A stretch of DNA of 64,000 nt, taken from positions 2,666,001-2,730,000 of the forward strand of contig NZ_CP016477.1 of NCBI RefSeq assembly GCF_001693275.1, read 5' to 3'. Shown piece by piece: positions 39,253 through 59,914 of this stretch. The DNA is from Picosynechococcus sp. PCC 7117 (lineage in GTDB: Bacteria > Cyanobacteriota > Cyanobacteriia > Cyanobacteriales > MRBY01). Position 1 is the first letter of the stretch, and every line of letters starts with the position of its first letter. Both the position numbers and the translations under genes were made by a program. The notes below the pieces were generated by a model. The model made no database searches and was not told the DNA's origin. It saw only the letters and a program-made list of their open reading frames with translations.

Positions 39253-41024
39253 CTGCACCCCAATCCCCCGCTTTTCCGGCCCACCGTCGCCTCGTGACGG
39301 ACGATCTCGAAAAACTGCTGACAATTTTGCCCGATGCGATCCGCGATCGCCTCGCCGACCACCCCAATAAAAACGCCCTGATTGAAGTGGTGATGGATCT
39401 CGGTCGCATCCCCGAAGCTCGCTTTGAAAATAGCACCGAAGACCTAGGCGATCGCCCCATTAGCCGCGAAGATTTGCAATATTCCGTAGAGCGGGTGGGG
39501 ATGTTTAGTGGCGACAACCGGGCGGGTATCGAACGCACCCTGCACCGGATCAGTGCCATGCGCAACCGCCAGGGGGACATCGTTGGTTTAACCTGTCGCA
39601 TCGGTCGCGCCGTGTTTGGCACGATTTTGATGATCCAGGAACTCGTTGAAAGCGGTAAATCGATTCTCCTGTTGGGACGGCCTGGGGTCGGTAAAACCAC
39701 GGCGCTGCGGGAAATTGCGCGGGTTCTCGCCGATGACTTTGGCAAACGGGTGGTGATTATCGATACCTCCAACGAAATTGCCGGGGACGGGGATATTCCC
39801 CATTCCGCCATTGGTCGCGCCCGCCGGATGCAGGTGGCTACCCCGGAATTGCAACATAAGGTGATGATCGAGGCGGTGGAAAACCATATGCCTGAAGTGA
39901 TTATCATCGATGAAATTGGTACAGAACTTGAAGCCCAGGCCGCCAGAACCATTGCCGAACGGGGTGTTCAACTTGTCGGGACAGCCCACGGTAATCGCAT
40001 CGAAAACCTGATTAAAAACCCGACTCTCTCGGATCTTGTCGGCGGCATCCAAGCCGTTACCCTGGGGGATGAGGAGGCTCGCAAACGGCGATCGCAAAAA
40101 ACCGTCCTCGAACGAAAAGCGCCTCCAACCTTTGATGTGGCCGTAGAAATGCTAGAACGACAACGGTGGGTGGTTCATAGCGATGTGTCGATCACCATTG
40201 ATACCCTCTTGCGGGGTCACCAACCGTTACTGGAAGTACGCACCGTCGATGATCAAGGCAATGTGAAGATCACCGAGGAAATGGAGCACCCCGTTGAGAT
40301 TCCTAACTGGAACCCCCAAACAAAGATGGCCCCTGAACCCAGCCGTCCACGGGGACTGCGTGCTTCTGGCAAAATGGCTCCTCTCCCTTTCGGTAGCCAG
40401 AAAAAAAAATTAGTTTCCCCGAGAAGCAACGCCCTCGATCCCCTCATTGATCAATCTTGGATTGCCCGTGATCCGCAACAGCAGGAGAAAGTGCGGGTGC
40501 CTGGCCCCAACGGTGAAGATTACCCCGTGTATGTCTATCCCTACGGCGTCGGGCGATCGCAGCTAGAGCAGGTGATCGAAATTTTGCGGCTGCCCATCGA
40601 ACTCACCAAAGATCTCGAAGGGGCCGATGCGGTTTTAGCGTTGCGATCGCAGTTAAAAAATCACTCTAAATTGCGTCAAATCGCCCAAACTTGCCATGTG
40701 CCGATCCATGCGGTGAAGTCCAATACGATCCCCCAAATCACGCGGGGTTTGCGGCGCATTTTGAATTTAGATGATCCCCAAAACCAAGAACCGACGGATT
40801 TACGGTTATTTGCCCAAAGCAATAGTGACGACGAAATCGATGCCCTCGAAGAAGCCCGCCTGGCGGTAGAGCAAATCGTGATTCCCCAGGGTCAACCCGT
40901 GGAACTGCTGCCCCGTTCGGCCAAAATCCGTAAGATGCAACACGAATTGATTGAACATTACCGTTTGCAATCATCGAGCTTTGGGGAAGAACCCAACCGC
41001 CGCCTGCGGATTTTCCCTGCCTAA
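39249..41024 (+). CDS. ycf45: Ycf45-family AAA ATPase with R3H domain
   Basis: This 591-residue cytosolic P-loop ATPase is related to the SpoIIIAA fold and to the plastid Ycf45 family. Walker A is GRPGVGKTTALREIA (near 139-148) and Walker B is VIIIDEIGTELEA. The core ends near DTLLRGHQPLLEVR. A poorly conserved linker follows. A C-terminal R3H-type nucleic-acid-binding segment (MQHELIEHYRLQSSSFGEEPNRRLRI) ends the protein, suggesting single-stranded DNA or RNA binding. Its ATG overlaps the ldpA stop (ATGA), so translational coupling is likely. Its function is unknown; the C-terminus overlaps the end of the macroglobulin gene by four bases. Confidence 0.9.
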   Translation: MTAPQSPAFPAHRRLVTDDLEKLLTILPDAIRDRLADHPNKNALIEVVMDLGRIPEARFENSTEDLGDRPISREDLQYSVERVGMFSGDNRAGIERTLHRISAMRNRQGDIVGLTCRIGRAVFGTILMIQELVESGKSILLLGRPGVGKTTALREIARVLADDFGKRVVIIDTSNEIAGDGDIPHSAIGRARRMQVATPELQHKVMIEAVENHMPEVIIIDEIGTELEAQAARTIAERGVQLVGTAHGNRIENLIKNPTLSDLVGGIQAVTLGDEEARKRRSQKTVLERKAPPTFDVAVEMLERQRWVVHSDVSITIDTLLRGHQPLLEVRTVDDQGNVKITEEMEHPVEIPNWNPQTKMAPEPSRPRGLRASGKMAPLPFGSQKKKLVSPRSNALDPLIDQSWIARDPQQQEKVRVPGPNGEDYPVYVYPYGVGRSQLEQVIEILRLPIELTKDLEGADAVLALRSQLKNHSKLRQIAQTCHVPIHAVKSNTIPQITRGLRRILNLDDPQNQEPTDLRLFAQSNSDDEIDALEEARLAVEQIVIPQGQPVELLPRSAKIRKMQHELIEHYRLQSSSFGEEPNRRLRIFPA

Positions 41025-44000
41025 TTCACCTCTAACGTCGAAGAAGTACTTCTGCCAAAGGTTTCGGCGTTGTATTGCAGTGACACTTCAGCCCCAGGAT
41101 AGTCAAAGCTGCCGGGGGTGATGGCGCGGACTAAATAGTGCAGGTTGTATACGCCCGCATTCAGGCGATCGCCATAGGCAACGACTTTATCTTTATAGAT
41201 TTTCTGGTAACGCAATTGCCATGCGTCCTGTTGGGGTTGGTAATAGGTGGTGGCGGTTTGGAAGGCGGTATCAATCGCCTCGAAGCCGGCGGGCAGGGGA
41301 TCGCTAATCAGCACATGATCGACGGGGTGATCGGTAATTACTTCTAAGCCAATGTCAAAGACTTGTCCGGCTTCGACGCTAAAGGGTTCTTTGAGGTCGT
41401 ACAACCCATATTTACGAACAACCTCGGTTTGGTTGGCGGGGCGGATATAGCGGGTGATGCGCAATCCATTTAATTTGCCGGGTTGGCTGCCCGGGAGACG
41501 GTAGTTAAATTCACTCAGGTAATGGAGTTTGCCGTCGCCGTCTTGTTGAATGATCAGTTGGCGATCGCCTTTGGGGAGATCCTGCATCGGCACATTGACA
41601 GTGGCACTGGGATTTTCGTAGCCTTGGAAATTAAATTCACCCAATTGTTGGCGGTCAAGTTTGACAATACTACTCAAGTTCGGTGGGGTCGTTTCGGTTT
41701 CGCTATAGACGGTCAGTGCGGTGAGGGCTTGGGCGTTGTCATAACTGGTTTGCCATGTGCCATCGCGCCGTTGATCGAGCAACCCTTGTAAGACTTGGCT
41801 GAGGGTGGTGGGGGTTTGCTCAATGTCCACAAAAAGCCGGAGGGCTTGGGACTGGGCGGTGGTGTTGGAGTGATACCAAAACCAGCGTTGGGGCAAATTA
41901 ATCTGGGCGGTGCGTCCGGTTTGATAAATTAACTCGTTGACTTCATCAGCTAACTCCTGGGCTTGGATTTGCCAATCGAGCAGTTGGGAAAGGTGGCGGG
42001 CTAATTTAATGTTGCCGACGGTATCAAACTCCTCGCGGGCATCATACAAAGTTGCCGCAAAGTCGCCGCGCACATCCCCCAGTTGATCGAGGGCTAAGAG
42101 GGTTTCGAGGCGGACGGTATTTTTACAATTGGTGGTGCTGCATTCGCTAAATTGGGCAGGATTGGCAAGGGTTTGATCAAGATAGGTTTTCAGTTTATTC
42201 ACCAAATTTTCATCAACGGATAATCCGGCTTGCTGGGCAAGGGCGATCGCCTCGGCGGCGTAGGGGGTGACATAGGGATCGGGGGTGTCGTCTCCGGGGA
42301 AGGAGGCAAAGCCACCACTGGCGAGTTGCAATTGGCTGAGATGGGTGAGGGCTTGGCTCGCTTCGGTTTGGATATCAAAATTCTCGAAGGCTTGACCATA
42401 ACGCTGTTTGAGGATTTCTAAATTCGCGGCAATGAGTAGTTGACTGGCAGTGGGTTCGAGGAATGGGAAATCGTCGTCGTTAAACGTATCTTGGGCCGGG
42501 GCGGTTAATTCTGGGATTAGGGTACTGGCAACGGTGACCGTTAAACTGCCTTGGTTGGGAACCACCTGCCGATCGATGTTCAGGGGAATTTTTACTTCAG
42601 CCTCGGTCAAAATCCCCGTGGCGATCGCCTGTTCTTTGACCGCTAATTGCTTCACGTCGAGGGGCACTTCCACGGCATCGGCGACCCCATTTTTCTGGGT
42701 TGTAAATTTAAAGGTGGCGGTTCCGGCTTCGTTGGCGACCATCGGGAAACGGTACACCTCGGTATTATTGCCAATTTCGGCGGTTTGCGTTTGCCGTTGT
42801 TTATTCCCTTGGACAAATTCCATCGCCCCCTGTACTTGGGCTTCAATATTTAAGCGACCTTTGGCACCCGTGGTATTGGTGACCATCACGCCCCCCTCAA
42901 GGCGATCGCCCACCCGCGCAAATTGGGGGAGAACGGGATTGGTGAGCAGGGGTTGGGTGGCGATAAAGGTTTCGTCGCCATTACCAAAACGCATTTGATC
43001 ATCCGTTGCCACCACGAGGACGCGCCAGGTGGTCAGGTCATCGGGCAGCATGAAGGAGACGACCGCTTGACCGTTGCTGTCCGTTAAAACGGAACTATCG
43101 TAGAAGGCGATCGCCTTAAAATCGGTGCGGGTGCGGGTATTTGCTAAAGCCGAGGATGCGCCACCGCCATAACCCCAACCTTTTGCTTCGGTCGAGTCCA
43201 TCGGCGCAATGGTCACATCGGGGCGATTGTCTGCCCAGCGGGTGGTGATCGGTTGATCGCGATAAATTTCAGCCAGCAGATCGGGAGGACGATAGCCCGT
43301 CAATTGCAAAATCGCTTCATTGACCACCATCACCGTTAACTGTCCGGCAACGGGTTGATCCGCTTGGTCTTTGAGTTGCAGATTTAAGGTTTGTGCGTCA
43401 CCGGGCATCACCTGATTCTGCTGGGGCTGAATGGCGACGGTTAATTTTTTCTCGGCGAGGCTCGTGCGGAAATCGTCAAAGCCAATTTTCATCAGCTTAT
43501 CCACACCATTTTTGCGGGCAGCTTCAATGGATTCCCCCTTATGAATTAAAACGGCTTCCACCGCAGCATTGGGCAACATCTCCGGCGTGACGGTAAATTG
43601 CACTTGGGGGGCGGCTCCGGTCACGGTTTGCTGGGTTTCGTACAGCACGCCGTGGCGAATCACAGAAAAATATAGTTCTGCTTCGGGGTAGGGGGATTGA
43701 ATTAATGCGGTTGCGGTGTCGCCAATTTTGTATTCATCTTTGTCGAGGGTGACTTCCACGCGGTTATTGTCGAAGCGATCGCCCCAATTAAACCAGCCCG
43801 CACCGCTGACCCAAATGAAACTATCGGTGGCGGCGGCATCGGGTTGCCCGCTAATGGTGGCATGGAGGCGATAGGAACCACTGTCGGGGGCAGTCAGTTC
43901 AACGGTTTGGGGTTTGGCAGCAGATTTAATAGTTTGGCTGGCGATCGCCTCGTATTCCACTTGGGGGCGTTTAACTTGAGATCCCTCGATAATTTGGGAA

Positions 44001-46753
44001 ACTTCGCTGTAATTGACCTTCTGCAATTCTAATTTGACCGTTTGCCCTTCCATCGCTTTCCCGTCGGGACTGGTGACAATCACTTGGGTTTTAAAGGGTT
44101 TTTCCGCATCGGCAACAAAATCATGGTTGATCCCAATCAGGCGATCGCCGGGCAACGCGGTAAAGGTTTGGGTATTGGACACGGATAGATTCGCCGCATC
44201 GGTCACTTCCGTTTCCACGCGATAGGTCACTGGATAGGGCAAATCTTTCGCCACTTCAATTTGCTGAGAACTTTGTCCCCCATCGTTTAAGGTTTTTTGC
44301 GTTTGCAGAACATCGCTACTAATGGACGGCTCCGTTTCCGACCAATGCCACTGCCGCCCAAACTGGAATTCGTCCCACCCCTCCGGTTGAAAATAACCGC
44401 GACTGCGGGTGACGTAATAATTCACCTTGCTGTTGCTCACGGGCGCACCAAACAAATAATCGCTCTGGGTCGTAGCCGTCAGGCGATCGCCCATCTTTGC
44501 AAATTTTTGATCAAGCTTGAGATCCACTTTGAAATTGGGCGGCCGGAATTCAGCCACTCGAAAATCCCCGTAAATATTCACCCCATTCGGTGCTTCGGCG
44601 CGGAGGTAATAACTCCCCAAATCCTGCGTTTTCGGCACATCCCATTCCACCGTAAACGTGCCGTAGCGATTCGTTTGGAAGTTGCCTAAAGTGGTCTCTT
44701 CCCCCTCTGGATTACTCAAGATTACCTTGTAATTTTGGTTAATATCCTGCCGCAATTTCCCATTTTTTAAATAATAGGCAACCCCTGTAAAATAAGCCTT
44801 TTCGCCCGGTTGATACAGTTGGCGATCGCTAAAAATCGTGCCCCGCCCTTGGGTTTCCCCATTATCCCAATCGGCATAAATCCCGTAACCGTAGGAACCG
44901 CTGTACTCATCGGTACGCGTAAAAGCCCAGTCCGAATTTTCGCGGGCAATCACGAGTAATTGCGGCGCATATTCTTGACCCTGCACACATCTGCGCCAAT
45001 CACGTCCCGTCACCAGCAAATTACCACCCCCATCGGTCTGTCCCGTAAAACAAGCTTGGGGATTTCCCTTCGTTTTTTGATCTAACTTGGATTGATAAAT
45101 TTCGATCTGGACATTAGGGACAGCCTCCCCCGTATCCAGATGGTGTACCCGCACAATGCCCGACTCCGGAAACCACTGGGCAAACACCCCCAAATTCGTC
45201 AACTGCACCAAGCCATAATATTGTGGCGATCGCCACTGGGTTTGATTATTCTGATCCTTATAGGTATTGGTTTTTGCCGTAATCCCGTAGGCGAGTAAAC
45301 CCGTATTCCCACCCAATTTTTCCCGAATCGGAATCGGCGTTTTCACCGACTGATTTTTCGGTTGTTTGACTGTAATGCTTTCCCAACTGCCTTCTGACGG
45401 CACTAAATCAGTGCTGTTATTTTGCGGATAAGCCGTTTCCGCATAAACCAAATCCGTCGGTTGCACCACCCGATAACCCACCTGAAACTTGCTTTCGGGT
45501 AAATTAATCGTTTCAATATCAAGATTCAGATCCGTCCCCGCCGGAAAAATATTCAGATCCCGCTGCGCCCAAATATCCGCCGCCACATCACCGGGGTTAT
45601 AGGTAATGGTTTGATCCTTGCCGAGGGTCTGCCCGTATTGATCCTTAAGATTTTTGCTAATCGTGATCGTGTAATCGGTATTCGGTTGGAGCACCCACGG
45701 ATTCAGATCCACCGAGCGGCTACCGGGATAGGTACGAACGGCGAGATCATCCCCCTCCGGTTTTGGGCTAATCGTAATATTTTCTACCGCCGAATCCGCA
45801 TCCAAACCATTATTAAAAACCAGTTGCGCACTCCCTTTCACAAAGCGACCATAGGCTCCCCCCGCATCCGGCTGCCCATAGAAAGTCATTTCTTCATATT
45901 GCAACGGCGCATAGGTTTTAAAGACGGAACGAAAGCTTTTTTCGGTGGGCAAGTTGCCTTGGTCTGGGGCGATTCCCGGTTGAAATTCTAGGGTGTATTG
46001 ACTTGCTTTCTGTAAAGGTTGACGAGGTTTAATAATGTATTGCCAGGTTTTTTCTGGATCGAATTGACCGTCTGAAAGAATATCTGCTGGCGGTTCCTGC
46101 ATCGTAACAGTTGCCTTAACTTTGCTCTGGCCGCTGACAAAAACAGTATGTTGCTTGAGGGAGTCGAGGTCGAGTCGGGTGTTGCTAGTCACTGTGCTTG
46201 CTTCCTCAAGACCCAAGGGTTCTGCATCTTCGGGCAAAGTGCCAACAACCCCGGGTAAATTGCTGAGGCGAATTTGGGGCGTTTGAAATGTCCAAGCTAA
46301 ATCTTCCGTGAGTTGATTATTTTCGAGATCCCCTAAACCGGATTTGAGAGTGACTTGGAAACGGGTAGCTTTGGGTAGGGGTTGGTCGGCTTGAAAACCA
46401 ATCATTTTCGGTGTGAGAAAGCGAAATTGCCCAGAAATGGCGGGAATCAATTCAATCTTTTGGAGGAGGGCTGTTTCCTGGGGGCTTTCGAGTTGGGCGA
46501 CGGGAATCAGGGGATGTTTAAACAGAATCCTGATTTGGGCGAGGTCGGCGGCTTCTCCGGTGGGGCTAATTTCGGTGATCCAGTCGGGTAGTTCTGGTAA
46601 AGGGAGCGCAGCAACGGCGGGAAAAGGCGCGGCTTGGTTGGTGACTTGGCTGATTTGGAGGATTTGTTGGCACCCAGACAATCCGGCGATCGCCAACAGA
46701 CAGCTTAAACAGGCCAGTAAGAGAAATTTAACAAAGCGACGTGGAAACCCCAT
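41021..46753 (-). CDS. Alpha-2-macroglobulin family lipoprotein lacking the thioester
   Basis: This 1910-residue bacterial alpha-2-macroglobulin has a lipoprotein signal peptide whose lipobox is AGLSGC (Cys28), so it should be anchored in the periplasm. Repeated macroglobulin beta-domains fill the N-terminal two-thirds (ending near VSFMLPDDLTTWRVLVVA). The complement-type alpha-helical domain follows, then a C-terminal receptor-like domain. Where thioester-bearing members have CxEQ, this one reads FPFLEPTASQLL (about residue 1430), so both Cys and Gln are gone. It cannot trap proteases covalently but may still bind them sterically. I start at ATG 46753, because upstream residues are not signal-like. 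No penicillin-binding protein pbpC partner is adjacent. Confidence 0.88.
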   Translation of the reverse strand: MGFPRRFVKFLLLACLSCLLAIAGLSGCQQILQISQVTNQAAPFPAVAALPLPELPDWITEISPTGEAADLAQIRILFKHPLIPVAQLESPQETALLQKIELIPAISGQFRFLTPKMIGFQADQPLPKATRFQVTLKSGLGDLENNQLTEDLAWTFQTPQIRLSNLPGVVGTLPEDAEPLGLEEASTVTSNTRLDLDSLKQHTVFVSGQSKVKATVTMQEPPADILSDGQFDPEKTWQYIIKPRQPLQKASQYTLEFQPGIAPDQGNLPTEKSFRSVFKTYAPLQYEEMTFYGQPDAGGAYGRFVKGSAQLVFNNGLDADSAVENITISPKPEGDDLAVRTYPGSRSVDLNPWVLQPNTDYTITISKNLKDQYGQTLGKDQTITYNPGDVAADIWAQRDLNIFPAGTDLNLDIETINLPESKFQVGYRVVQPTDLVYAETAYPQNNSTDLVPSEGSWESITVKQPKNQSVKTPIPIREKLGGNTGLLAYGITAKTNTYKDQNNQTQWRSPQYYGLVQLTNLGVFAQWFPESGIVRVHHLDTGEAVPNVQIEIYQSKLDQKTKGNPQACFTGQTDGGGNLLVTGRDWRRCVQGQEYAPQLLVIARENSDWAFTRTDEYSGSYGYGIYADWDNGETQGRGTIFSDRQLYQPGEKAYFTGVAYYLKNGKLRQDINQNYKVILSNPEGEETTLGNFQTNRYGTFTVEWDVPKTQDLGSYYLRAEAPNGVNIYGDFRVAEFRPPNFKVDLKLDQKFAKMGDRLTATTQSDYLFGAPVSNSKVNYYVTRSRGYFQPEGWDEFQFGRQWHWSETEPSISSDVLQTQKTLNDGGQSSQQIEVAKDLPYPVTYRVETEVTDAANLSVSNTQTFTALPGDRLIGINHDFVADAEKPFKTQVIVTSPDGKAMEGQTVKLELQKVNYSEVSQIIEGSQVKRPQVEYEAIASQTIKSAAKPQTVELTAPDSGSYRLHATISGQPDAAATDSFIWVSGAGWFNWGDRFDNNRVEVTLDKDEYKIGDTATALIQSPYPEAELYFSVIRHGVLYETQQTVTGAAPQVQFTVTPEMLPNAAVEAVLIHKGESIEAARKNGVDKLMKIGFDDFRTSLAEKKLTVAIQPQQNQVMPGDAQTLNLQLKDQADQPVAGQLTVMVVNEAILQLTGYRPPDLLAEIYRDQPITTRWADNRPDVTIAPMDSTEAKGWGYGGGASSALANTRTRTDFKAIAFYDSSVLTDSNGQAVVSFMLPDDLTTWRVLVVATDDQMRFGNGDETFIATQPLLTNPVLPQFARVGDRLEGGVMVTNTTGAKGRLNIEAQVQGAMEFVQGNKQRQTQTAEIGNNTEVYRFPMVANEAGTATFKFTTQKNGVADAVEVPLDVKQLAVKEQAIATGILTEAEVKIPLNIDRQVVPNQGSLTVTVASTLIPELTAPAQDTFNDDDFPFLEPTASQLLIAANLEILKQRYGQAFENFDIQTEASQALTHLSQLQLASGGFASFPGDDTPDPYVTPYAAEAIALAQQAGLSVDENLVNKLKTYLDQTLANPAQFSECSTTNCKNTVRLETLLALDQLGDVRGDFAATLYDAREEFDTVGNIKLARHLSQLLDWQIQAQELADEVNELIYQTGRTAQINLPQRWFWYHSNTTAQSQALRLFVDIEQTPTTLSQVLQGLLDQRRDGTWQTSYDNAQALTALTVYSETETTPPNLSSIVKLDRQQLGEFNFQGYENPSATVNVPMQDLPKGDRQLIIQQDGDGKLHYLSEFNYRLPGSQPGKLNGLRITRYIRPANQTEVVRKYGLYDLKEPFSVEAGQVFDIGLEVITDHPVDHVLISDPLPAGFEAIDTAFQTATTYYQPQQDAWQLRYQKIYKDKVVAYGDRLNAGVYNLHYLVRAITPGSFDYPGAEVSLQYNAETFGRSTSSTLEVN

Positions 46754-47033
46754 ACAATGCCCTCTGATTCTCTCTTCTGTGATAACGAATCCCCCTGGCA
46801 ATAAACGATTTTTCGTATATTTCTTAAAAACGACAAAGATATTAATTCGTGACGAAATTGTGGCGATCGCCGGGGGAGCCATTGGGTAAAATGACGCAAT
46901 CTTGATGAAAAAGTCGGCTGCTCTGCAAATATCCCCTAAAATGGCGGACAAATTGTGAGCAAATGGGCTTGATAACGATGATTCCTCCGGGAATGGATTG
47001 GCGATCGCCCCGTAGCTTTTCCCTACCGATGCC

Positions 47034-48266
47034 ATGGCACCTCTTTTTGTTGACTCCCTCAAACAGCAGTTCCACACCTGGTTTACCCAGCAGCAGGCGA
47101 CCACGGAAGAAGCTGCCGACTTGGTAGAACTCCCCGATACCCTGTCCCTCCAGTTGGCGCGTCAACTGGAAACCCTGGCGAGTCCAGAGGGCTATTGTGC
47201 GCCTGTCAAAACCTCCATTACCGAGGCCATTGAAACTTGGCAAACCAATTTAGAAGCCCCCAATAGTTTTGTGCTCCTGGGCAATCCCGTGGAGCCGCTC
47301 CCGAAAATTTTGAGTGAGAGTATTCCCCGCCAAACTTTCCCTGATCTGGAAATCCTCACTCCCCTCGCCTGTTTGCAGCGCCCCCTCCACCCCAGGCACA
47401 TTAGTCAACAGATCCAAAAGGCCCTAGAGCTCTATCCCCAGATTGATCTCAGCCCAGGCGATCGCCAAGATCAGCCCACTGTGGATCAACTAGAACAACG
47501 ACAAACCCTGGTGATTATTCCCTGTCTAGAGCAATGTTTTCTCCGGTGTATTGGCGGTTGGGAAGGCATCGAGACCCTCCGGGATATCACCATTCAAAAT
47601 CGCCACTGTTTCTGGATCATGAGCTGTAACCATTGGGCCTGGGACTTTCTGGATTTTGTGGGACAAATCAGCGCCTATTTTAGCCATGTGGACACCCTGC
47701 CTAAGTTAAAAGGGGAAATGCTCCAGACTTGGTTAGAACCCATTGCCCAGGTGGTTTTGCCACCCCCTAACGTCCCCGAAGACCCGCCAGAGGATACGGC
47801 TGAATCAGATTCCCCTAAAGGGGAGCGTCTCGATGATTGGCAAAATCTCGCTAGTCAAGCCGACGGCACAGGTCAAATCGCCGCAAATCTTTGGCTCCAA
47901 AGCTTACGGATTCACCAAGAGCAAATCGAGCAACACCCAAACCTCCAATTTGATTTCGACGCAACAGATCCGCACCAACAGCCCCTCACCCTTGAGAGCG
48001 TTAAACCAGCTCTACCCAGTCTGCCCAGCTTAGCCAGTGGTGATCTCTACATTCTCCATTCCGTCTTGATCCATGGCCAAATTAGCCGCGCCCACCTAGC
48101 CTTGAGTTTGGGAGAATCTCGGAATCGCATCCAAGCGCGGATCCAGTGGCTCCTCCGCCAGGGGGTGTTGCGGGAAAATCAAGGGGCCCTCTCCATCCAA
48201 GCGGCCCACTATATCCGCCTCAAAAGTGAGCTGGCCAATAACAATTTTTTTGTGGGGGAAGATTGA
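47034..48266 (+). CDS. Degenerate NTPase-like protein with C-terminal winged helix, next to MscS
   Basis: This 410-residue protein is not one I can name. Near 79-95, SFVLLGNPVEPLPKIL sits where an NTPase would have its P-loop but lacks GK[ST]. Near 158-215, TLVIIPCLEQCFLRCIGGWEGIETL and RHCFWIMSCNHWAWDFLD look like Walker-B and sensor strands of a STAND/AAA-type ATPase, with the acidic residues mostly replaced. Residues about 335-400 (SGDLYILHSVLIHGQISRAHLALSLG...RIQWLLRQGVL) form a predicted winged helix. It ends 3 bases before the ATG of an MscS channel, so the two form a tight operon. It may regulate the channel. Confidence 0.6.
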   Translation: MAPLFVDSLKQQFHTWFTQQQATTEEAADLVELPDTLSLQLARQLETLASPEGYCAPVKTSITEAIETWQTNLEAPNSFVLLGNPVEPLPKILSESIPRQTFPDLEILTPLACLQRPLHPRHISQQIQKALELYPQIDLSPGDRQDQPTVDQLEQRQTLVIIPCLEQCFLRCIGGWEGIETLRDITIQNRHCFWIMSCNHWAWDFLDFVGQISAYFSHVDTLPKLKGEMLQTWLEPIAQVVLPPPNVPEDPPEDTAESDSPKGERLDDWQNLASQADGTGQIAANLWLQSLRIHQEQIEQHPNLQFDFDATDPHQQPLTLESVKPALPSLPSLASGDLYILHSVLIHGQISRAHLALSLGESRNRIQARIQWLLRQGVLRENQGALSIQAAHYIRLKSELANNNFFVGED

Positions 48267-48269
48267 TCG

Positions 48270-49139
48270 ATGGGAGTATCCTTTGTGCCGATGTCTGAAT
48301 GGTTCACCCTCTTAGCCCAGGTTGACCCGCCTGAAAATTTATCCCAAAGACTTTTAACGGATTTCACGATCCAAAAAATCCTCCGGGCCGTGCTGGCGAT
48401 CGCCATTGCCTACGGCACGATGGCCCTGATCCAAGGCACCATTAACTGGCTGTCGGAACGGGTGCCCCGGCGCTTGCGGCTCTTGATTAAACAATCAATC
48501 CCCTTCTGGAAAGGCTTGATCCTAATTTTAATCCTCGCTTATCTGCTGAATTTATTTTTTAATCTCTCCCAAAACAATCTCATCGCCCTAACCGGCACCA
48601 TCGCCGTGGCCTTGGGTTTTGCCTTTAAGGATTATGTAAGCTCAATTATTGCCGGGGCCGTGGCCTTGTTTGAAGCCCCCTACCGCGTTGGCGATCGCAT
48701 TAAAATTGGCGAACATTATGGCGAAGTCGTTGGCTATGGCTTGCGGGGGATTCAGCTCCAGACCCCCGACGATAACCTCGTCACCATTCCCCATAACAAA
48801 ACCTGGACAGAGGCCGTTTCCAATGCCAATAGCGGCCAACTCGAAGCCCAGGTCGCCACGGACTTTTTCTTTGGCCATGGCGTTGATGTGGAGCAGGTGA
48901 TCCAAATTCTCTACCAAGCGGCCTACAGCAGCAAATATACCCAGCTTAAGCTACCGATTGTGGTGGTGATGCAAGAAAAAATGTGGAGCACCCAATTCAA
49001 GCTCCGTTGCTATCCCATGGATGCGAGGGACGAATTTATCTATAAAACGGATTTAATCCGTCGCGCGAAACAAGCCTTCGCCCATCAAGGTCTGCCTTAT
49101 CCGAGGCTTGTGCCCCAAACCATGGATGCCGAGGAATAA
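48270..49139 (+). CDS. MscS-family mechanosensitive channel
   Basis: This 289-residue channel releases solutes on hypo-osmotic shock. It has a short N-terminal region, membrane helices near 35-55 and 75-95, and the pore-lining TM3 segment ALTGTIAVALGFAFKDYVSSIIAGAVALFEAPYRVGDRI, which is the MscS signature. The beta domain HYGEVVGYGLRGIQLQTPDDNLVTIPHNKTW and an alpha/beta cytosolic vestibule follow. Its start codon is only 3 bases beyond the upstream NTPase-like gene, indicating translational coupling. Confidence 0.93.
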   Translation: MGVSFVPMSEWFTLLAQVDPPENLSQRLLTDFTIQKILRAVLAIAIAYGTMALIQGTINWLSERVPRRLRLLIKQSIPFWKGLILILILAYLLNLFFNLSQNNLIALTGTIAVALGFAFKDYVSSIIAGAVALFEAPYRVGDRIKIGEHYGEVVGYGLRGIQLQTPDDNLVTIPHNKTWTEAVSNANSGQLEAQVATDFFFGHGVDVEQVIQILYQAAYSSKYTQLKLPIVVVMQEKMWSTQFKLRCYPMDARDEFIYKTDLIRRAKQAFAHQGLPYPRLVPQTMDAEE

Positions 49140-49171
49140 GTCTTAATTATATTGATCTAAAAATCCGCCCG

Positions 49172-50974
49172 TTAAAACCCGGCGATCGCCTGGGGAAAAT
49201 CCAATAGAAAGCACGTGCGGTAATCATTACGGTGAGGATTGGGGTCACTAGAAACGGTAATGCTACCTTCTAAATGTTCAACAATGGTTTTCACGAGGGC
49301 GAGACCAAGACCAGTACCAGGAATGGCCTGGGCTGTGGCCCCGGTGCCCCGACGAAATTTATCAAAAATTTGGGATTGTTCTTCGGCGTGGATGGCGGCT
49401 CCATCGTTACAAAGGCGAATTTGAATCCGGGCGGGCGATCGCCCCAAATATTCAACGCTGAGGGTAACGTTACTCTTGGGGGTGGCATATTTCCCGGCAT
49501 TGGTGAGGAGTTCACTCATGGCATTGAGAAACTGTTCTGGATCCGTCTCAAATTGCAATTTTGTGCTGAGAGCCTTGGGCTTAAACCGGAGGTGAAACTG
49601 GAGTTGTTTGAGGGGAGTCCAACGATCTTGGAATTTTTGCACAAGCTCTGAGAGGGCCGGGCCGATGGCGAGGCGTTGGGGTTTGAGGGCAAATTCACTG
49701 GCCTCTGCCTGTTGGAGCTGGAGCAGGTCGTGGATGAGTTTGCTTTCTCGGTTGAGTTCTTGATCGAGAATGTTTAAATAAGTCCGTTGTTTTTCTGGCG
49801 ATCGCCCCGGTTGTTTGAGCATTTTAATCGCCAGCTTCATCGTTGCCAGGGGAGTATTGAGTTCGTGACTAACAGTGCTCAAAAAATCATCCTTCAAGCG
49901 ATTAAGGTGCCGCAGTTGTTGAATTTGGTGCCGCATCTGTTGACTAAGTTTCGCCTGGACTTCAAGGCTCCATTTCAATTGACTCGTGCGTTCTTCGACT
50001 AGGGATTGTACCTGCCGGAGGGCCTGGTGGTGGATCATCGTGCGGCCCAATTGGTGAGCAATGCTGGCCATGGTTTGAATTTCTTCGGGGAGCCATTGTC
50101 GGGGCGATCGCTGGGCCAAAATCACAAAACCTAAGACCGGTTGACTGTGCTGGGGAGACAGTTGCCCACCCATTAACGGAGCAAAGAGTAGGCTACGAAC
50201 TGGGGATCCCAGGAGAGGAGATTGCCAGGGATGGGTTGTGGTATCGGCGATCGCCCACACCAGAGGCGCTTTTTGCCAAGCCACCTGACAGAGTTCACAG
50301 TCCTGGAGCGACCATTGGGTCGGCAGCTCAGACCAGCTAGACTTAAGCTCCAAAGTATCCGTCGGATCAGGTTCCTGTCGTTGACGGAGGGGATTCGCCG
50401 ATTTGAGTAAAAGGATACCTCCCTGCTCGACGCCGAAAATTGTTTGGAGTTGGGTACTGGCGGCCTGAAATAATTTTAGTGTGTCTTGAATTTCATCAAT
50501 GAGCTGCTGAATTTCCCGCTGGGCCTGTTGGTACTGTTGGCAGTTGGCGATGCGGTTTTGCTGGGCCAAGATCCCAAGGGCCAACTGGAGCGGTGGACGG
50601 AGTGCCTCAAGGGTGTTTATCTGGGGTAAGGTTTGGGACTGACAACCGAGCCATAGATAACCCTGGGCCTGCTGTGCGGGGAGGGGCACAGTGGCGATCG
50701 CCTCCAGACCCTGGGCCATCAGAGCGTGGTAAGGCGTGTGACGTAAATCGGCATAGGTGCAAATGTCAGGATGAAATTCTTGGGGTAGAACAAAATTGAC
50801 ATCGGCTAGGTTCGTGGGCCAGGTCTCGGTGAGGCTTTGGGATGGGCTTAAATCGACCCTCAAACAAACCCAATCTACCTGTAACTGCCGGGCGATCGCC
50901 GCCGTTAAGCGGGCTAAAAGGCGTGGGGATGAGATGCCAAATTCTAAGCAGTCGTAGAGGGCAGCGGAGACCAT
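49172..50974 (-). CDS. GAF-domain sensor histidine kinase
   Basis: This 600-residue soluble kinase has no transmembrane segment. Two GAF-like regions occupy about 1-150 and 165-335; the second includes CELCQVAW, VRSLLFAPLMGGQL and GFVILAQRSPRQW. A short coiled coil precedes the H-box KDDFLSTVSHELNTPLATMK (phospho-acceptor His near 375). The ATPase domain has the N-box ELLTNAGKYA, the G1 region CNDGAAI and G2 GTGLGLALVKTI. No chromophore-binding Cys stands out clearly, so it is more likely a small-molecule or redox sensor than a phytochrome. No response regulator is adjacent; the cognate partner is unknown. Confidence 0.9.
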   Translation of the reverse strand: MVSAALYDCLEFGISSPRLLARLTAAIARQLQVDWVCLRVDLSPSQSLTETWPTNLADVNFVLPQEFHPDICTYADLRHTPYHALMAQGLEAIATVPLPAQQAQGYLWLGCQSQTLPQINTLEALRPPLQLALGILAQQNRIANCQQYQQAQREIQQLIDEIQDTLKLFQAASTQLQTIFGVEQGGILLLKSANPLRQRQEPDPTDTLELKSSWSELPTQWSLQDCELCQVAWQKAPLVWAIADTTTHPWQSPLLGSPVRSLLFAPLMGGQLSPQHSQPVLGFVILAQRSPRQWLPEEIQTMASIAHQLGRTMIHHQALRQVQSLVEERTSQLKWSLEVQAKLSQQMRHQIQQLRHLNRLKDDFLSTVSHELNTPLATMKLAIKMLKQPGRSPEKQRTYLNILDQELNRESKLIHDLLQLQQAEASEFALKPQRLAIGPALSELVQKFQDRWTPLKQLQFHLRFKPKALSTKLQFETDPEQFLNAMSELLTNAGKYATPKSNVTLSVEYLGRSPARIQIRLCNDGAAIHAEEQSQIFDKFRRGTGATAQAIPGTGLGLALVKTIVEHLEGSITVSSDPNPHRNDYRTCFLLDFPQAIAGF

Positions 50975-51003
50975 GGTTTCGCCTGAAATATCTTGCTCTA
51001 TTT

Positions 51004-51345
51004 TTATTCTTCCCCGTCATCCTCAGAATCATTCTCTAGGGCTTCTGACTCCACCGCCAAAAACTTTTCCAAAATAAACTGTAACTTCGGCCGCGCAATG
51101 TAGGGCCATCCCCCTTCCGTTTCCATGTCCCGCAGGATGTTGTACAGATCCCGCCGTCGTTCCGGGAGACTCGGATAAAAATAATCTTCAGAAATTTGAC
51201 GATGGGTAAATTCTAGTTCGCGCAAAATCTCCAGGAGCCTTTCCCCATTGCCTTCATATTGGGCGGCGATCGCTAATAATTCCTGCTGGATACGGTCAAG
51301 TTGTTCAGAGAGATTAGCGGCAGAATCAGGGGAAACCATGGGCAT
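51004..51345 (-). CDS. Conserved hypothetical cyanobacterial protein
   Basis: This 113-residue, strongly acidic and helical protein ends in a run of Asp/Glu (NDSEDDGEE). The middle part FTHRQISEDYFYPSLPERRRDLYNILRDME looks structured. I recognise no domain. It starts 30 bases upstream of the histidine kinase on the same strand, so the pair may be co-transcribed. Start may be ATG 51345 or the third codon. Confidence 0.65.
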   Translation of the reverse strand: MPMVSPDSAANLSEQLDRIQQELLAIAAQYEGNGERLLEILRELEFTHRQISEDYFYPSLPERRRDLYNILRDMETEGGWPYIARPKLQFILEKFLAVESEALENDSEDDGEE

Positions 51346-51544
51346 CGAAAATCAAAGATAGGACAAAGTAGACCCGTCGATCTTACTATTTATTCCCGCC
51401 AAAATTTGCCAGGGAGTCGCCCATTTCTCCGGTTTTCAGGGGATCAATGCCGCTATTTTCCGATCTAACCCGTCGGGCATTCCAAAAACTTTCCTTTAGA
51501 ATAGGACGAGAATATTTTCTTCAAGATCATCACCAAAAATCTCC

Positions 51545-53092
51545 ATGTTTAAAGGGTTGTTCCGTCGTAGATTACTCGCCAGTTGCTTAATCGCCGTGAT
51601 CAGTTGGCAACTTTCCCCCGCCATCAGTTGGGCCCAGGTTCCTGGTGTGACCCCCTCGATTCAACCCTACCTCGACCAAGTCATTGAAAATATCACCGAA
51701 TTTACCCTCGACAATGGCTTGCAATTTATCGTGCTCGAAGACCGGAGCGCCCCCGTCGTTTCCTTTGTCACCTATGCTGATGTGGGCGGCGTCGATGAAC
51801 CCGACGGCAAAACAGGGGTGGCCCACTTCCTCGAACACCTCGCCTTTAAGGGCAGTACAAACCTCGGCACCACTAACTACGAGGCCGAACAAGTCCTATT
51901 AGATCGCCTTGATCGACTCTTTGACCAAATGCAGCAGGCCAAGGAAGCTGGCGACATGGCCCAGTTCGAGACCCTTGAAACCGAATTTCAGCAGGTGCAA
52001 GCAGAAGCCAACGAATATGTCATCCAAAATGCCTTTGGCCAAGTGGTTGAAGCCGCTGGGGGGGTTGGGTTAAATGCCGCCACGTCCGCCGACTATACCC
52101 AATACTTTTACAGTTTTCCTAGCAACAAATTGGAATTGTGGATGTCCCTCGAATCGGAACGCTTTTTAGATCCTGTTTTTCGGGAATTTTATAAGGAGCG
52201 GGAGGTGATCCTCGAAGAACGGCGGATGCGCACGGACAACTCCCCCATCGGCAAAATGGTCGAAGTCTTTCTTGATACGGCCTTTTCAGCCCACCCCTAC
52301 CGTCGTCCGGTGATTGGTTATGACGAAGATATTCGCAATTTGACTCGCCAAGACATTAAGGATTTCTTTGGGGAACACTACACCCCCGATAACCTCACCA
52401 TCGCCATCGTGGGAGATGTAGACCCCACCCAGGTCAAAGCCATGGCAGAGGTTTACTTTGGTCGTTTTCCCAAAGCTGCAGCCTTGGAGGAACCGCCGCT
52501 TCCCGTGGAGCCGCCCCAAACAGAAACCCGTTCTGTCACCCTCGAACTCCCCAGCCAACCGTGGTACTTGGAAGGCTACCATGCGCCCCAGCTAACAGAT
52601 CCAGATTATGTGGTGTATCAGATTATCGCCTCAATTCTCAGCAATGGCCGCACGTCCCGTTTGTACAAGTCCCTTGTAGAAGAGCAGCAGGTGGCCCTGA
52701 ATGCGGAAGGGTTTAATGGTTTTCCGGGGGAAAAATATCCGAATATTATGTTGCTCTATGCCCTAACGGCTCCAGGAAAAACCGTAGATGATGTGGCAGC
52801 GGCTTTTGCGGCGGAATTGGAACGTTTAAAAACAGAGCCGGTGAGTCCCGAAGAGCTAGAGCGGGTAAAAACCCAAGCCCGGGCCAGTCTATTGCGATCG
52901 CTAGATTCCAATATGGGGATGGCGCGTCTGTTGGCGACCTATGAAGTGCAAACCGGGGACTGGCGGGAGTTGTTCACGGAGCTAGACCGCATTGCTGCGA
53001 TTACGGCGGAGGATGTGCAACGGGTTGCCCAGAAAACCTTTACCCCAGAAAATCGCACCGTTGGGAAGTTGTTGTCGGCACCGACGGAATAG
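51545..53092 (+). CDS. M16-family zinc metalloprotease (processing-peptidase-like)
   Basis: This 515-residue protein has a secretion signal (about 1-31, ending ISWAQ) followed by an inverzincin M16 domain. The zinc motif is VAHFLEHLAFKGS (HxxEH at 94-98), and the distant Glu ligand is in EREVILEERRM near 214. The C-terminal half is the inactive lobe. Relatives are the mitochondrial and chloroplast processing peptidases and pitrilysin. Many cyanobacteria carry two adjacent M16 genes (one catalytic, one not); here the downstream neighbour is missing and a gene-poor stretch follows. Confidence 0.93.
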   Translation: MFKGLFRRRLLASCLIAVISWQLSPAISWAQVPGVTPSIQPYLDQVIENITEFTLDNGLQFIVLEDRSAPVVSFVTYADVGGVDEPDGKTGVAHFLEHLAFKGSTNLGTTNYEAEQVLLDRLDRLFDQMQQAKEAGDMAQFETLETEFQQVQAEANEYVIQNAFGQVVEAAGGVGLNAATSADYTQYFYSFPSNKLELWMSLESERFLDPVFREFYKEREVILEERRMRTDNSPIGKMVEVFLDTAFSAHPYRRPVIGYDEDIRNLTRQDIKDFFGEHYTPDNLTIAIVGDVDPTQVKAMAEVYFGRFPKAAALEEPPLPVEPPQTETRSVTLELPSQPWYLEGYHAPQLTDPDYVVYQIIASILSNGRTSRLYKSLVEEQQVALNAEGFNGFPGEKYPNIMLLYALTAPGKTVDDVAAAFAAELERLKTEPVSPEELERVKTQARASLLRSLDSNMGMARLLATYEVQTGDWRELFTELDRIAAITAEDVQRVAQKTFTPENRTVGKLLSAPTE

Positions 53093-53707
53093 AGACGGAA
53101 TAAAGGCGATCGCCTCAGAATCAAAAAATGCGGTGCGAGTACATCCCAGAGAGTTAAAGGCCTTTGCCTTTGTGTGTAGATACACTCTACTGAAACCATA
53201 GAGGTAACTTATCGTGGGTCAAAACTGACACGCTATTAATTGACTAATGAAATACAGCTAAAGTGTTTATGCACACCAATGCAAACACCTCACAGGGCTA
53301 TGAGTTGTGGGGAGTGTTATGTTCAAATCACGAAATATTAAGAATAGCTACAAAGTGTCACAAACAATTCTCGAAACAGTGATTTACTGCAAGTTTAGGT
53401 GTGGTTTTAAAGTATCAGGACAAAAATTATCGATAAAACTTGCACTTTTCATAACAAATAGTAATCAAGAGCCTAGTTTATCTAGCTATTCACCACCCCA
53501 CATTAACTACTTTGCCAAATAAATAAAAAGCAATCAGTCTAAGGGTAGATTTTCGATCGTCTTGAATTTTTGATGAAGAGTGATTGAAAAATAAAGTAGC
53601 TCATCTAATATGTGAAGAATATTGTTTCACTTGTTAAATAAGTTTGGATTCCCTCGGATTTTTCGGGAAGTCTACGTAAAATAGAAGCATAATTTTGGTG
53701 TGTGGGT
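53093..53707. other. AT-rich gene-poor spacer
   Basis: About 615 bases between the M16 gene and the large outer-membrane protein gene. It holds one HIP1 octamer near 53106, then AT-rich sequence. A 71-codon open frame (53307-53522) has no ribosome-binding site and atypical composition, so I do not call it. An imperfect inverted repeat (TTCCC...GGGAA) lies near 53650, some 50 bases before the downstream start, in the likely leader. No RNA gene is recognisable. Confidence 0.5.
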
Positions 53708-56278
53708 ATGAACTTCAAGAATTTAAAACAAGTCAAAGGTATTAGGGCAGTAGTCTATACTGCGATCCTTCTATCTTGTGGCCCTATCTTCGCGGCTTCA
53801 GCGAATCCGGCAGAGCATCTTCTCTCAGACTCCAGCCCGATCATAGAAAGACAAGAAAACAAAAGACGCGTCAAACCTCAGTCCGTCCCTGAGCTTGAAA
53901 CTCGACAGCAGACAAGTTTAATTGCTCAATCTGGTAGTGGTGCTTCATCGACAGGCCAATCCTCGTTACCAGGAGTCACTGGTGGCGTCGAAGATACGAG
54001 TGTTTCAGAGCCTGGCTCCCCTTCTAATATTAGAAATGTTGATGAAGAATTAGAGCAACTGCTCTCTGAGCCAGACGAAGTATCGCCAGAGTCAGAAGTT
54101 GATGACGAAAGTATCGTCGGGGAAGGAGAGGATCCAGAACAAGAGCTAGAAGATATTCTTTCTGAATCAGACAATCAGAGCGAAGACACTGACGTACAAG
54201 TCATTTCTGACAGTCAGCTTCGAACGTTAAATCCCCGGTATTCCACTGTTTATCTGGACGAACTTCCTGTTTCTCACCTCTCTGACCTAGAGGTATCGAC
54301 TAATATTCTCAGTGGAGATTTCACTATTCGGGACACCGGTTTCCAAATCCTGCAAAATTTAGGGTCTAGTACGAGCGCCAGTGTTGAAGATAATGTCTTA
54401 ACCACAGAATTCCATGGGAATTTTCTCCAAGTCAAGACAGCCCAACAGCTTAGAGAAGTGACGACAACATTGGAAGTGCCTGTAACAATTCAGGGCTTTC
54501 GTATTCGATTTAGTCTTACTGGCTCCTGTGAGCTAGTACCTCAAGCAGGTGAAAATCCACCAGATGGTTCTATCTGCAGCTATACACCACCGGTAAGGCT
54601 TGTTTATGATGAAAATGAACCGACCAATCTAATTCCTACAGATATTCTCCTTGGGGATGACATTCCCGATGGCTATCAATTTAGAGAAGTTGTTCCTGCC
54701 TCAGATGGCGATGGTGAGCCTATCCCGGGATCCTTACTGGCTAGAATTGAAGAATTTGATGGTGATGGTTATATTGGCTCTGTAGAAACCTTGTTGGAAG
54801 GTGAGAAGCAGCTAGGCATTGATGTGGATGTACGCAATTCTGGTTTTGCTGAAGATACGAGCCGCGACCGATTTACCAGAAGATCTGAAGAAATTGATTA
54901 TGTAGTGACCACTAAGGTTGCCAATGTTCGGCAAGTCATTAAGCAGAACAGCGAAGAAGCTGTTTTAGGTCGTACCGTCCGGGCGCTCAACATTATCCCC
55001 AATGATGAAAGTGTTGAGTTAGATATCGTTGCCCAGCTTGCGAGTATCTGGTTACCTGATGCAGAGCCGACTCTAGAGGGAACAGATGAGCCCTACAACG
55101 CTAATATTAACGTTAATATTTTCAGAGCAGCCGATGCAGCTAGAGTGCCGGCGAATAGCTTTGCTTGGTATCATGCGGGTATTGCTAAAGCAGAAAGTCT
55201 ACCTCCATTAGCACCAGGTGAAGAGCGTAAATTCTCAGACATTCCAGTTGGTCGCTACAACGGGATCTGGCTTGGTTTATCACCGGTAATTGATCGCAGT
55301 TTTGAAGTAACCGAGAACGGAACTCGTTTTAGAAATATCTCGGCACCACGTTTAGTAGATTCTGTATTTGAAGAAGCTGGTTCAGGTGATCTCGACGAAG
55401 AGCAAATCAATGTTGATATCTTTGGTTTGTTTTTGGATGAGTTTGGAGAAGTAACAGATATCATCGACTTTGACTTTAGCGATATTCCGGATGCTTATAC
55501 CCAGGTAGGTCTTGACATTTTCGAGAGAGATGCGATCGCCCCTAATACTCTTGTTTATCGTGAACGAACAAACTACATTCCCCATGTAAGTTTCACCGGA
55601 ACTAAAGTTGATGCTCGCAATCGTAAGCGCTATTACACTGGTCTGCTTTGGGACTATACCGAAGGAGAATCAGGGCAAAAGTTCCGTTCTTATCTAGGTG
55701 CTGATTATCAATATCTCAACCCAGAAAGAGGTGTGCGAGCCTTTACTGGTTTGATTGGTTACATTAATCCTGACCGAGACTACTACAGTCAAGTTTGGGG
55801 TGAAATTGCCAAAACGTTTAGTTCAGCTGATAAAAATACCAGCTTTACTCTCGGCACATCTCTCGTTTATGCCATTGACCAAGCAGACGACATTGGTAAC
55901 GATATTTTCGTTGATGCAGACGCCAGTAAGTTTTTATTAAGTGCCGGTGCTCGTTTTGGTTCCATCAGACTGGGTGTGGATCAAAATATTGACTTTTTCC
56001 CGAATTCTGATGATGCAAGCACAGTTTTATCCGCAGGCATTGACTTTGGAGAAAGTGTTACCTTTGCCGGTTTTTATACTCCCTACGATGAAGGCAATAA
56101 TGTCGCTCTAGTGGGAGCAAACCTGGGTTTCCGCTTCGGTACTGACTACAATAGCCCAAGATTATCTCTGGGTTGGAGTCAAAATGAGTATCGATTTGAT
56201 ACTAATAACTTCATTGACAATCGCTACACGTTGACCTTCCGTGTTGGTCGACCTGGCAATCCGTTTGGTCCTCGGTAA
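53708..56278 (+). CDS. Predicted outer-membrane beta-barrel protein with acidic linker, unknown family
   Basis: This 856-residue protein starts at ATG 53708 (MNFKNLKQVKG). A signal peptide (about 10-33, ending IFAASANP) suggests export. Residues about 85-170 are a low-complexity Ser/Glu/Asp/Pro linker. A beta-rich middle domain follows (about 170-610). The last 240 residues have alternating aromatic/small residues and repeated SFTLGTSLVYAID, KFLLSAGARFGSIRLGV, LRFGTD-like strands, ending YTLTFRVGRPGNPFG, which looks like an outer-membrane barrel. I do not recognise the family. Composition is AT-richer than neighbours. It ends in a strong terminator. Confidence 0.7.
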   Translation: MNFKNLKQVKGIRAVVYTAILLSCGPIFAASANPAEHLLSDSSPIIERQENKRRVKPQSVPELETRQQTSLIAQSGSGASSTGQSSLPGVTGGVEDTSVSEPGSPSNIRNVDEELEQLLSEPDEVSPESEVDDESIVGEGEDPEQELEDILSESDNQSEDTDVQVISDSQLRTLNPRYSTVYLDELPVSHLSDLEVSTNILSGDFTIRDTGFQILQNLGSSTSASVEDNVLTTEFHGNFLQVKTAQQLREVTTTLEVPVTIQGFRIRFSLTGSCELVPQAGENPPDGSICSYTPPVRLVYDENEPTNLIPTDILLGDDIPDGYQFREVVPASDGDGEPIPGSLLARIEEFDGDGYIGSVETLLEGEKQLGIDVDVRNSGFAEDTSRDRFTRRSEEIDYVVTTKVANVRQVIKQNSEEAVLGRTVRALNIIPNDESVELDIVAQLASIWLPDAEPTLEGTDEPYNANINVNIFRAADAARVPANSFAWYHAGIAKAESLPPLAPGEERKFSDIPVGRYNGIWLGLSPVIDRSFEVTENGTRFRNISAPRLVDSVFEEAGSGDLDEEQINVDIFGLFLDEFGEVTDIIDFDFSDIPDAYTQVGLDIFERDAIAPNTLVYRERTNYIPHVSFTGTKVDARNRKRYYTGLLWDYTEGESGQKFRSYLGADYQYLNPERGVRAFTGLIGYINPDRDYYSQVWGEIAKTFSSADKNTSFTLGTSLVYAIDQADDIGNDIFVDADASKFLLSAGARFGSIRLGVDQNIDFFPNSDDASTVLSAGIDFGESVTFAGFYTPYDEGNNVALVGANLGFRFGTDYNSPRLSLGWSQNEYRFDTNNFIDNRYTLTFRVGRPGNPFGPR

Positions 56279-56771
56279 GAGTCAATTTAAGTTCCTCCAT
56301 TCAAAAAGCATAAAGATGGCGAAAAGTAAATTTTCGCCATCTTTATTTTTATTCTTAGTACTATTAACAAATAACAGTTTAGATATAGCAACCTTGTTAT
56401 TGACAAGTTATTTTTAAGAGCTTATTTTTGTATTCCTCATTTTTAAGATCGAGGATAAGAGGATAAATTGTCTAACAACAAGCACAAAGATTAAGACACG
56501 GCCAGATAATCTGAGAGAATGTGTTTCTGGAAATTACTTACACATCGAATTTTTAACTAAGACTAAGATCTCTTTAAATTGACTTTTTTATGTCACCATT
56601 CTTAGAAATTAAAATGCCATCTGATTACGGAAAGTAAAAAATCTATTTTCTGCATCAAAGAATAGCTTGGTAATTTCTCATCTTAATCAAGCCATAAAAA
56701 TAAGACTTAGACATAACATCTAAGCCTTTAAAATAATTGATTATTCAATTTCAAGAACTGAATACCTAAAC
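56279..56771. other. AT-rich intergenic region
   Basis: About 490 bases between the convergent ends of the barrel-protein gene and the small secreted-protein gene. Apart from the terminator hairpin at 56312-56344 I see no ORF, RNA gene or repeat. Confidence 0.5.
56312..56344 (+). terminator. Strong intrinsic terminator
   Basis: A perfect 14-bp stem (AAAGATGGCGAAAA with TTTTCGCCATCTTT) closes a 5-base loop and is followed by an AT-rich tail. It lies 34 bases after the barrel-protein stop. The symmetric A/T flanks mean it may also act on the opposite strand. Confidence 0.85.
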
Positions 56772-57131
56772 CTAGGAAGGATCTTCACCAATAGTGAATT
56801 CAACAACTTCTCCTTCATCATCGAAGGGGTTTAGCTCGTTAAGTTCGATAAATACGGAGGTTTCAGAATTACCGATAGCATAACCTTGGGTAATGACAAT
56901 GTCGGGACCAAAAGGAATTTGCACAGCAGCAGCACCGGTTGCAGCAGCAGCGTAGCCGTCACCAAAAGCAACGGAGCCAGAGAAGCCAGTTTGATCAGTG
57001 CCAAAACCACCGACAACTTCCTGATCTACAAAGGAAACGGAAGCAGCGAATTCAGCTTTTGCGGAAGAGGCAAAACCGAGAGAAAGAGCAGCAGCACCAG
57101 CGGCAACAGCAGCGATTTTTACAAAGTTCAT
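56772..57131 (-). CDS. Small Ala/Gly-rich secreted protein, unknown
   Basis: This protein of about 119 residues has a classic signal peptide: MNFVKIAAVAAGAAALSLGFASSAKA, with cleavage expected after residue 26. The mature part is acidic and rich in Ala, Gly, Val and Phe (VSFVDQEVVGGFGTDQTGF), with no Cys. It ends with an acidic stretch (NPFDDEGEVVEFTIGEDPS). I start at ATG 57129-57131, which has GGAGA eight bases before it, rather than eight codons upstream. The function is not known; it may be a periplasmic or secreted structural protein. Confidence 0.65.
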   Translation of the reverse strand: MNFVKIAAVAAGAAALSLGFASSAKAEFAASVSFVDQEVVGGFGTDQTGFSGSVAFGDGYAAAATGAAAVQIPFGPDIVITQGYAIGNSETSVFIELNELNPFDDEGEVVEFTIGEDPS

Positions 57132-57488
57132 TTTTGTTTCTCCAATAATCAAAATTTTGAATGTGTAATTGGATGGAGCTTATACTTAATATATAGCCCC
57201 TTACTCTAGTAAATATACCCCACTTCCCCAAAAAAACGATCATTCTTTATAAGAAATTTACGTTTAATTGTTGTGAGTAATTAATATTTTTTTTGTTAAG
57301 AATCAGTCAAGTTAACAACTACATTGAAAGCTTTTTTTTTTCAAGTATCCCAGGGAATAATCTTTACGTAAGTATAACTTTGACAGCAAGGGCAGTTGGT
57401 TTTCGTGTACTGCTTATGGGTTTGGGTTGTTAATTAGATTGTTTTTGGCCAAAAATAAAGATTGAAGTTTCCATAACACCTTGCATTT
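57132..57488. other. AT-rich spacer with divergent start regions
   Basis: About 357 bases between the small secreted-protein gene and the MscS-like gene. On the minus strand TATATATTAAGTATAAG (around 57180-57197) could supply a -10 element for the secreted protein. A T-tract with short flanking inverted repeats (TTGAAA...TTTCAA) sits near 57325-57345. No gene is visible. Confidence 0.4.
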
Positions 57489-59195: not shown

Positions 59196-59267
59196 GGGCG
59201 ATCGCCTTGCTCAATTCATTTTCTATAATTGAGATAAATACTTATTCCTTTTCCTTATCCAAAAAAA

Positions 59268-59833: not shown

Positions 59834-59914
59834 GGCGATCGCCTTCCCTTTAAATCGGTACCAGTTTCATCGTCCGAAATGACTATAATGTAACCCTTGC
59901 AGTATTTCTGATGG

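Follow-up and report, generated by a model that had tools for sequence, protein, structure and literature searches.

The gene pair described here lies in a window of 64,000 nucleotides (i.e., the whole stretch of DNA that was analysed) from chromosomal DNA of a cyanobacterium with a 3.43-Mb genome, and encodes a 410-residue protein with a predicted AAA+-like fold but lost catalytic motifs (referred to as the pseudo-AAA+ protein), followed by an MscS-type channel of a distinct subtype. On balance, the pseudo-AAA+ protein is probably a dedicated cytosolic partner of this adjoining channel, which it would bind and influence. Indeed, the strict mutual dependence of both genes, the leading position of the partner gene, the gene overlaps, the persistence of both genes when unlinked, and a single fusion together form the pattern of two subunits or of an obligate partner pair. 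The two genes are situated as follows:

47034..48266, + strand: pseudo-AAA+ gene (ATG start, 410 aa)
48270..49139, + strand: partner gene for the MscS-type channel (289 aa; distinct subtype), in the same frame as the upstream gene with one TGA in between

The first-pass annotation had described a 410-residue product ending 3 bases before an MscS channel, and both reading frames were recovered accordingly, with 3 nt separating the pseudo-AAA+ stop codon from the MscS ATG in the window sequence. One flank of the pair holds an ORF called in the opposite direction (41021–47104, – strand), the real start of which probably lies near 46.76 kb judging from its sequence, and the other flank holds a histidine-kinase-like gene (49172–50974, – strand). 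Since both flanking genes are on the – strand, the pseudo-AAA+ and MscS genes constitute an isolated two-gene unit. Scanning for promoters and terminators gave no signal above chance. In-frame readthrough between both genes was considered as a mechanism and rejected, since their frame relation differs among relatives. As to the divergent neighbour itself (41021–46760, – strand), it encodes a very large lipoprotein resembling bacterial alpha-2-macroglobulin, and its mechanical ORF call extends into the pseudo-AAA+ gene, so that its start may be miscalled.

The channel was readily recognized as an MscS protein by its MscS beta domain (PF00924; 71.2 bits, E-value of 8e-20, cut-off of 20.2) and C-terminal domain (PF21082; 47.4 bits, E-value of 3e-12, cut-off of 21), and it matched many solved MscS structures (E-values of ~1e-13 to 1e-10). 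Six further MscS genes are present in the same genome (seven in total), all without a pseudo-AAA+ partner. A second MscS-domain gene of the window, located 8 kb downstream (57489–59195, + strand), encodes an N-terminally extended protein of 568 aa, likewise without such a partner. The N-termini of the channel subtype (loci L003–L036; 48270–48335 in the window) are short and hydrophobic and mostly end in a conserved LAQ, like a cleavable signal peptide.

AlphaFold2 modelling of the 410-aa protein on its family alignment yielded, with high confidence, an AAA+ alpha/beta core, a helical lid and a winged helix (pLDDT of 87.5, pTM of 0.85). Foldseek matched this model to ORC/Cdc6, RuvB and archaeal STAND-like ATPases (E-values of 1.6e-5 to 1e-3), and further to NLRs and NSF, and structural alignment via VIA-align matched it to NSF-D2 (Z of 13.9 over 215 residues, at 3.5 Å), TnsC (Z of 13.0, covering model residues 34–410) and Orc1/Cdc6 (Z of 12.3). 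Because of the model and these matches, the predicted core, lid and winged helix are designated AAA+-like, and the STAND/AAA-like assignment made in the first-pass annotation is thus borne out by an ATPase-like core that matches solved AAA+ structures. The winged-helix segment noted there was recovered as well, both in the model and as sequence matches to winged-helix families. The parts of the protein are:

residues 1–25, N-terminal helix; ~35–242, AAA+-like core; ~261–330, lid; 335–402, winged helix; followed by a conserved C-terminal tail
47280..47306, + strand: P-loop position (residues 83–91, GNPVEPLPK), between beta1 (78–83) and a helix (89–96)
47505..47531, + strand: Walker B position (residues 158–166, TLVIIPCLE), with Pro163 at the Asp position
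47607..47642, + strand: sensor-1-like strand and start of the next helix (residues 192–203, CFWIMSCNHWAW), with F193, W194 and W203 invariant
48036..48239, + strand: winged-helix domain (residues 335–402), with a family-mean net charge of about 0 and mostly Glu where the recognition helix starts
48237..48257, + strand: C-terminal tail NNNFFVG (residues 402–408), near-invariant, with N403 and F405 invariant

The protein is probably cytosolic, as no transmembrane stretch is evident on reading its sequence, and the members of its family are acidic (pI of 4.5–5.6). An amphipathic, membrane-binding role of the N-terminal helix was examined and discarded, since its hydrophobic moment clearly exceeded that of shuffled sequences in only 10/29 members and some core helices scored as high. 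The NNNFFVG tail may serve as a docking peptide, and is regarded as a candidate for that role.

The catalytic motifs proved to be missing throughout the family. Specifically, the Walker A motif (GxxxxGK[ST]) was absent in 29/29 aligned members, in which the P-loop position approximately reads N-S-L-V-I-L-G-S-P-V-E-P-I. Likewise, Pro163 replaces the Walker B Asp in all 29 and position 164 is variable, departing from the Walker B pattern hhhhD[DE]. Both losses had been proposed for the window's protein (i.e., no GK[ST] and mostly replaced Walker B acidic residues), and hold for its relatives as well. At the same time, the loop behind Walker B is invariant among these members at L165, F169, L170, R171 and G175. 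Because the P-loop is missing and the Walker B Asp is an invariant Pro in every member, the 410-aa protein reads as an ancient pseudo-ATPase, shared by the whole family and kept by purifying selection, rather than as a decaying gene, and its dead active site has been retained under another constraint.

The order was sampled with 148 genomes, and 33 of them, including that of the window, carry a full-length homologue (~28–52% identity). The named loci include Limnothrix, Spirulina, Synechocystis salina and Synechococcus sp. CCY 9618, and a profile search added a few homologues elsewhere in the class. The family alignment (29 members) contains many invariant residues, and dN/dS ranged from 0.11 to 0.24 in five close species pairs, and the gene is therefore constrained and presumably functional. 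No match to the 410-aa protein alone was obtained in Pfam and NCBIfam scans up to an E-value of 10, and neither the pseudo-AAA+ protein nor the channel matched the anti-phage defence models of PADLOC up to an E-value of 1. Since plasmid and phage collections contained no match to the family either, it is not evidently mobile. Within an open-access library, no title or abstract described a pseudo-ATPase/MscS pair.

A possible ancestor was sought as well. A family member with an intact P-loop was found in neither the order (148 genomes) nor the phylum (386 genomes), and hhalign comparison with cyanobacterial AAA_22 and AAA_16 ATPase sets returned probabilities below 1%, no better than those of unrelated controls, and thus demonstrated no sequence-level descent from a specific intact ATPase. 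AAA+ ancestry is therefore argued from the fold alone. The first-pass annotation had further stated that mscS genes of other organisms also adjoin genes for ATPases. A search of 24 genomes did not bear this out in the order, as a P-loop ORF lay within ~1.5 kb of only 1 out of 30 MscS loci, where it ran on the opposite strand and was FtsK-like by eye, and none matched the pseudo-AAA+ family. With no intact-P-loop relative, an hhalign signal at background, and other sampled MscS genes lacking ATPase neighbours, there is no support for the proposed origin from an ATPase encoded beside an MscS gene.

When the same 148 genomes were searched for the channel subtype (E-values up to 1e-60), it was found in 33 genomes, being exactly those with a full-length pseudo-AAA+ gene. 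There was no genome with an intact homologue and without the channel subtype (Fisher p of ~1e-33, shared ancestry being ignored). Within at least three genera (g1, g8 and g33), some genomes carry both genes and others neither, and fragments of the pseudo-AAA+ gene, with no such channel, were encountered in G029, G034, G136 and G027 (75%-complete). Of 36 pairs, 31 are adjacent and in the same orientation, with the pseudo-AAA+ gene first, a gap of at most ~130 nt, and often an ATGA overlap. The linkage to mscS that the first-pass annotation had proposed to survey in related genomes is thus both conserved and specific.

The exceptions comprise a single inserted ORF (G012, G050), a 10-kb insertion (G144), contig ends (G068), and one genome in which both genes are kept ~420 kb apart (G013). 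Because the genes flanking the pair vary between genomes, its conservation is not a matter of block synteny. The pair is duplicated in G003, G120 and G314, and the copies mostly have matching partners in both trees (e.g., the second copy of G003 groups with G063, and that of G314 with G122, in the pseudo-AAA+ and channel trees alike). In one draft genome (G080), both genes lie within a single open frame of 711 aa, a fusion known from that genome only. In G029, of the same genus as the window, one ~13-kb deletion (window 47121–60174 versus 3914/3915 of locus L095) removes both genes and leaves the first 29 codons of the pseudo-AAA+ gene as a remnant at the breakpoint. This joint loss was set aside as evidence for coupling, since a single deletion took out both genes.

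Other genes were also observed next to the pair. In several lineages (loci L032, L103, L118, L119, L120 and L121), a second MscS gene that is only distantly related lies directly upstream, resulting in MscS–pseudo-ATPase–MscS arrays, and L117 carries a more distant relative (702 aa). In G003 the arrangement is a tandem of an MscS gene and two pairs. A patatin-like gene (RssA/NTE-type, GSGGARG) was noticed at L036 (5015–6001), L113 (679–1674), L154 (3869–4867), L155 (3646–4656) and L156 (3904–4932). It adjoins the pair in one family as well as in Synechococcus sp. CCY 9618, and in the latter shares 1 nt with the pseudo-AAA+ gene.

Since the pseudo-AAA+ protein is probably cytosolic, acidic and devoid of a motor, a scaffold on the cytoplasmic cage of the channel is proposed. 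With touching or overlapping genes on what would be one transcript, the partner could be produced in step with the channel. It would remain a rigid, nucleotide-independent scaffold and dock on the cytoplasmic cage, perhaps via its C-terminal NNNFFVG. Once docked, it might tune gating, inactivation or assembly, or couple the channel to another cytosolic signal. A tandem AlphaFold model, for which the window frame was read through the TGA as a modelling device, reached a pTM of 0.72 without interface confidence. In E. coli, MscS opens with no partner of this kind, so that none is needed in principle.

A stronger version, which we deem possible yet rather doubtful, is that this MscS subtype is an obligate two-component channel, in which the pseudo-AAA+ subunit caps the cytoplasmic cage and tension gating depends on it or is set by it. 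MscS channels are textbook tension-only openers that need no helpers. If the two-component version were true, an AAA+ fold would be employed as an ion-channel subunit, and MscS channels would have what is to our knowledge their first dedicated accessory subunit. The exclusive association of family and subtype suggests that some MscS channels have a built-in controller. The roles of the many bacterial MscS paralogues (seven here) are unexplained, and a dedicated subunit could set one of them apart. The protein moreover offers a clean case of an ATP machine whose fold was retained after its engine was lost.

Instead of acting on gating, the pseudo-AAA+ protein could be an assembly or quality-control factor dedicated to this MscS subtype, supporting membrane insertion or heptamer formation. 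Such a factor would fit the strict co-occurrence, the helper-before-client gene order and the ATGA overlaps, and AAA+-related folds frequently act on other proteins. However, a chaperone without an ATP motor would be unusual, and other MscS proteins, including six more in the window's own genome, manage without it, making this explanation unlikely.

Quite unlikely, too, is a transcription regulator that acts on the mscS operon or on osmotic genes through DNA binding by its winged helix, with the AAA+-like part as ligand-sensing module. Such a role is suggested by the match of the C-terminal domain to the CggR N-terminal domain (E-value of 6e-5), by CggR_N and TrmB matches in 9–10 of the 29 members, and by the location of the gene upstream of its presumed target. 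Nevertheless, a winged helix is a regular component of Orc/Cdc6- and STAND-type ATPases, and the pI of the whole protein (4.5–5.6) argues against a DNA-binding regulator. The net charge of the winged helix averages +0.6 across the family (the window's own copy being more basic, at +4), its recognition helix has a family-mean charge of +0.2, and the residue with which this helix begins (position 363) is Glu in 21/29 members. Because the recognition helix mostly starts with Glu and has no net charge family-wide, DNA binding appears less likely from these sequences. Moreover, if the protein were purely a regulator, one would expect some genomes to carry it without the channel, rather than both genes always being missing together and the regulator never occurring by itself.

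The invariant former active-site loop (P163, L165, F169, L170, R171 and G175) indicates a pocket under selection, and some atypical P-loops do bind nucleotide, which would suit an ATPase or NTP-binding switch with a non-canonical nucleotide site; we consider this very improbable, however, since every member lacks both a GK[ST] P-loop and an acidic residue where Walker B should have one. Finally, neutral linkage, in which both genes merely share an operon and inherited their association, is disfavoured to the point of being hardly credible: adjacency alone can be hitchhiking, and a close relative did lose both genes through the one deletion described above, but the pair is conserved where flanking genes are not, both genes are kept although separated in G013, G144, G012 and G050, and an intact homologue never occurs without the channel.

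The favoured reading of a dedicated channel partner can be placed next to known systems. The pseudo-AAA+ protein has its predicted architecture (core fold, lid, and a winged helix at the C-terminus) in common with Orc1/Cdc6, the archaeal ATPases 2fna and 2qen, TnsC and RuvB, and its core also resembles NSF-D2. In contrast to AAA+ and STAND ATPases, it has no Walker A motif, no Walker B acid, and no sequence similarity detectable by Pfam or by hhalign (against cyanobacterial AAA_16/AAA_22). Inactive AAA+ scaffold subunits such as clamp-loader delta and Orc2/Orc3 have also kept the AAA+ fold and lost the catalytic motifs; these join active AAA+ partners, however, whereas the conserved partner here is an ion channel. 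That channel shares the beta and C-terminal domains of the MscS family, but its subtype was found only with the pseudo-AAA+ gene, whereas the other MscS genes of the genome lack one. A precedent for a cytosolic protein partner is E. coli FtsZ, which binds the MscS cytoplasmic domain (PMC4440785). Unlike the pseudo-AAA+ protein, FtsZ is a general cell-division protein that is neither dedicated nor genetically linked to MscS.
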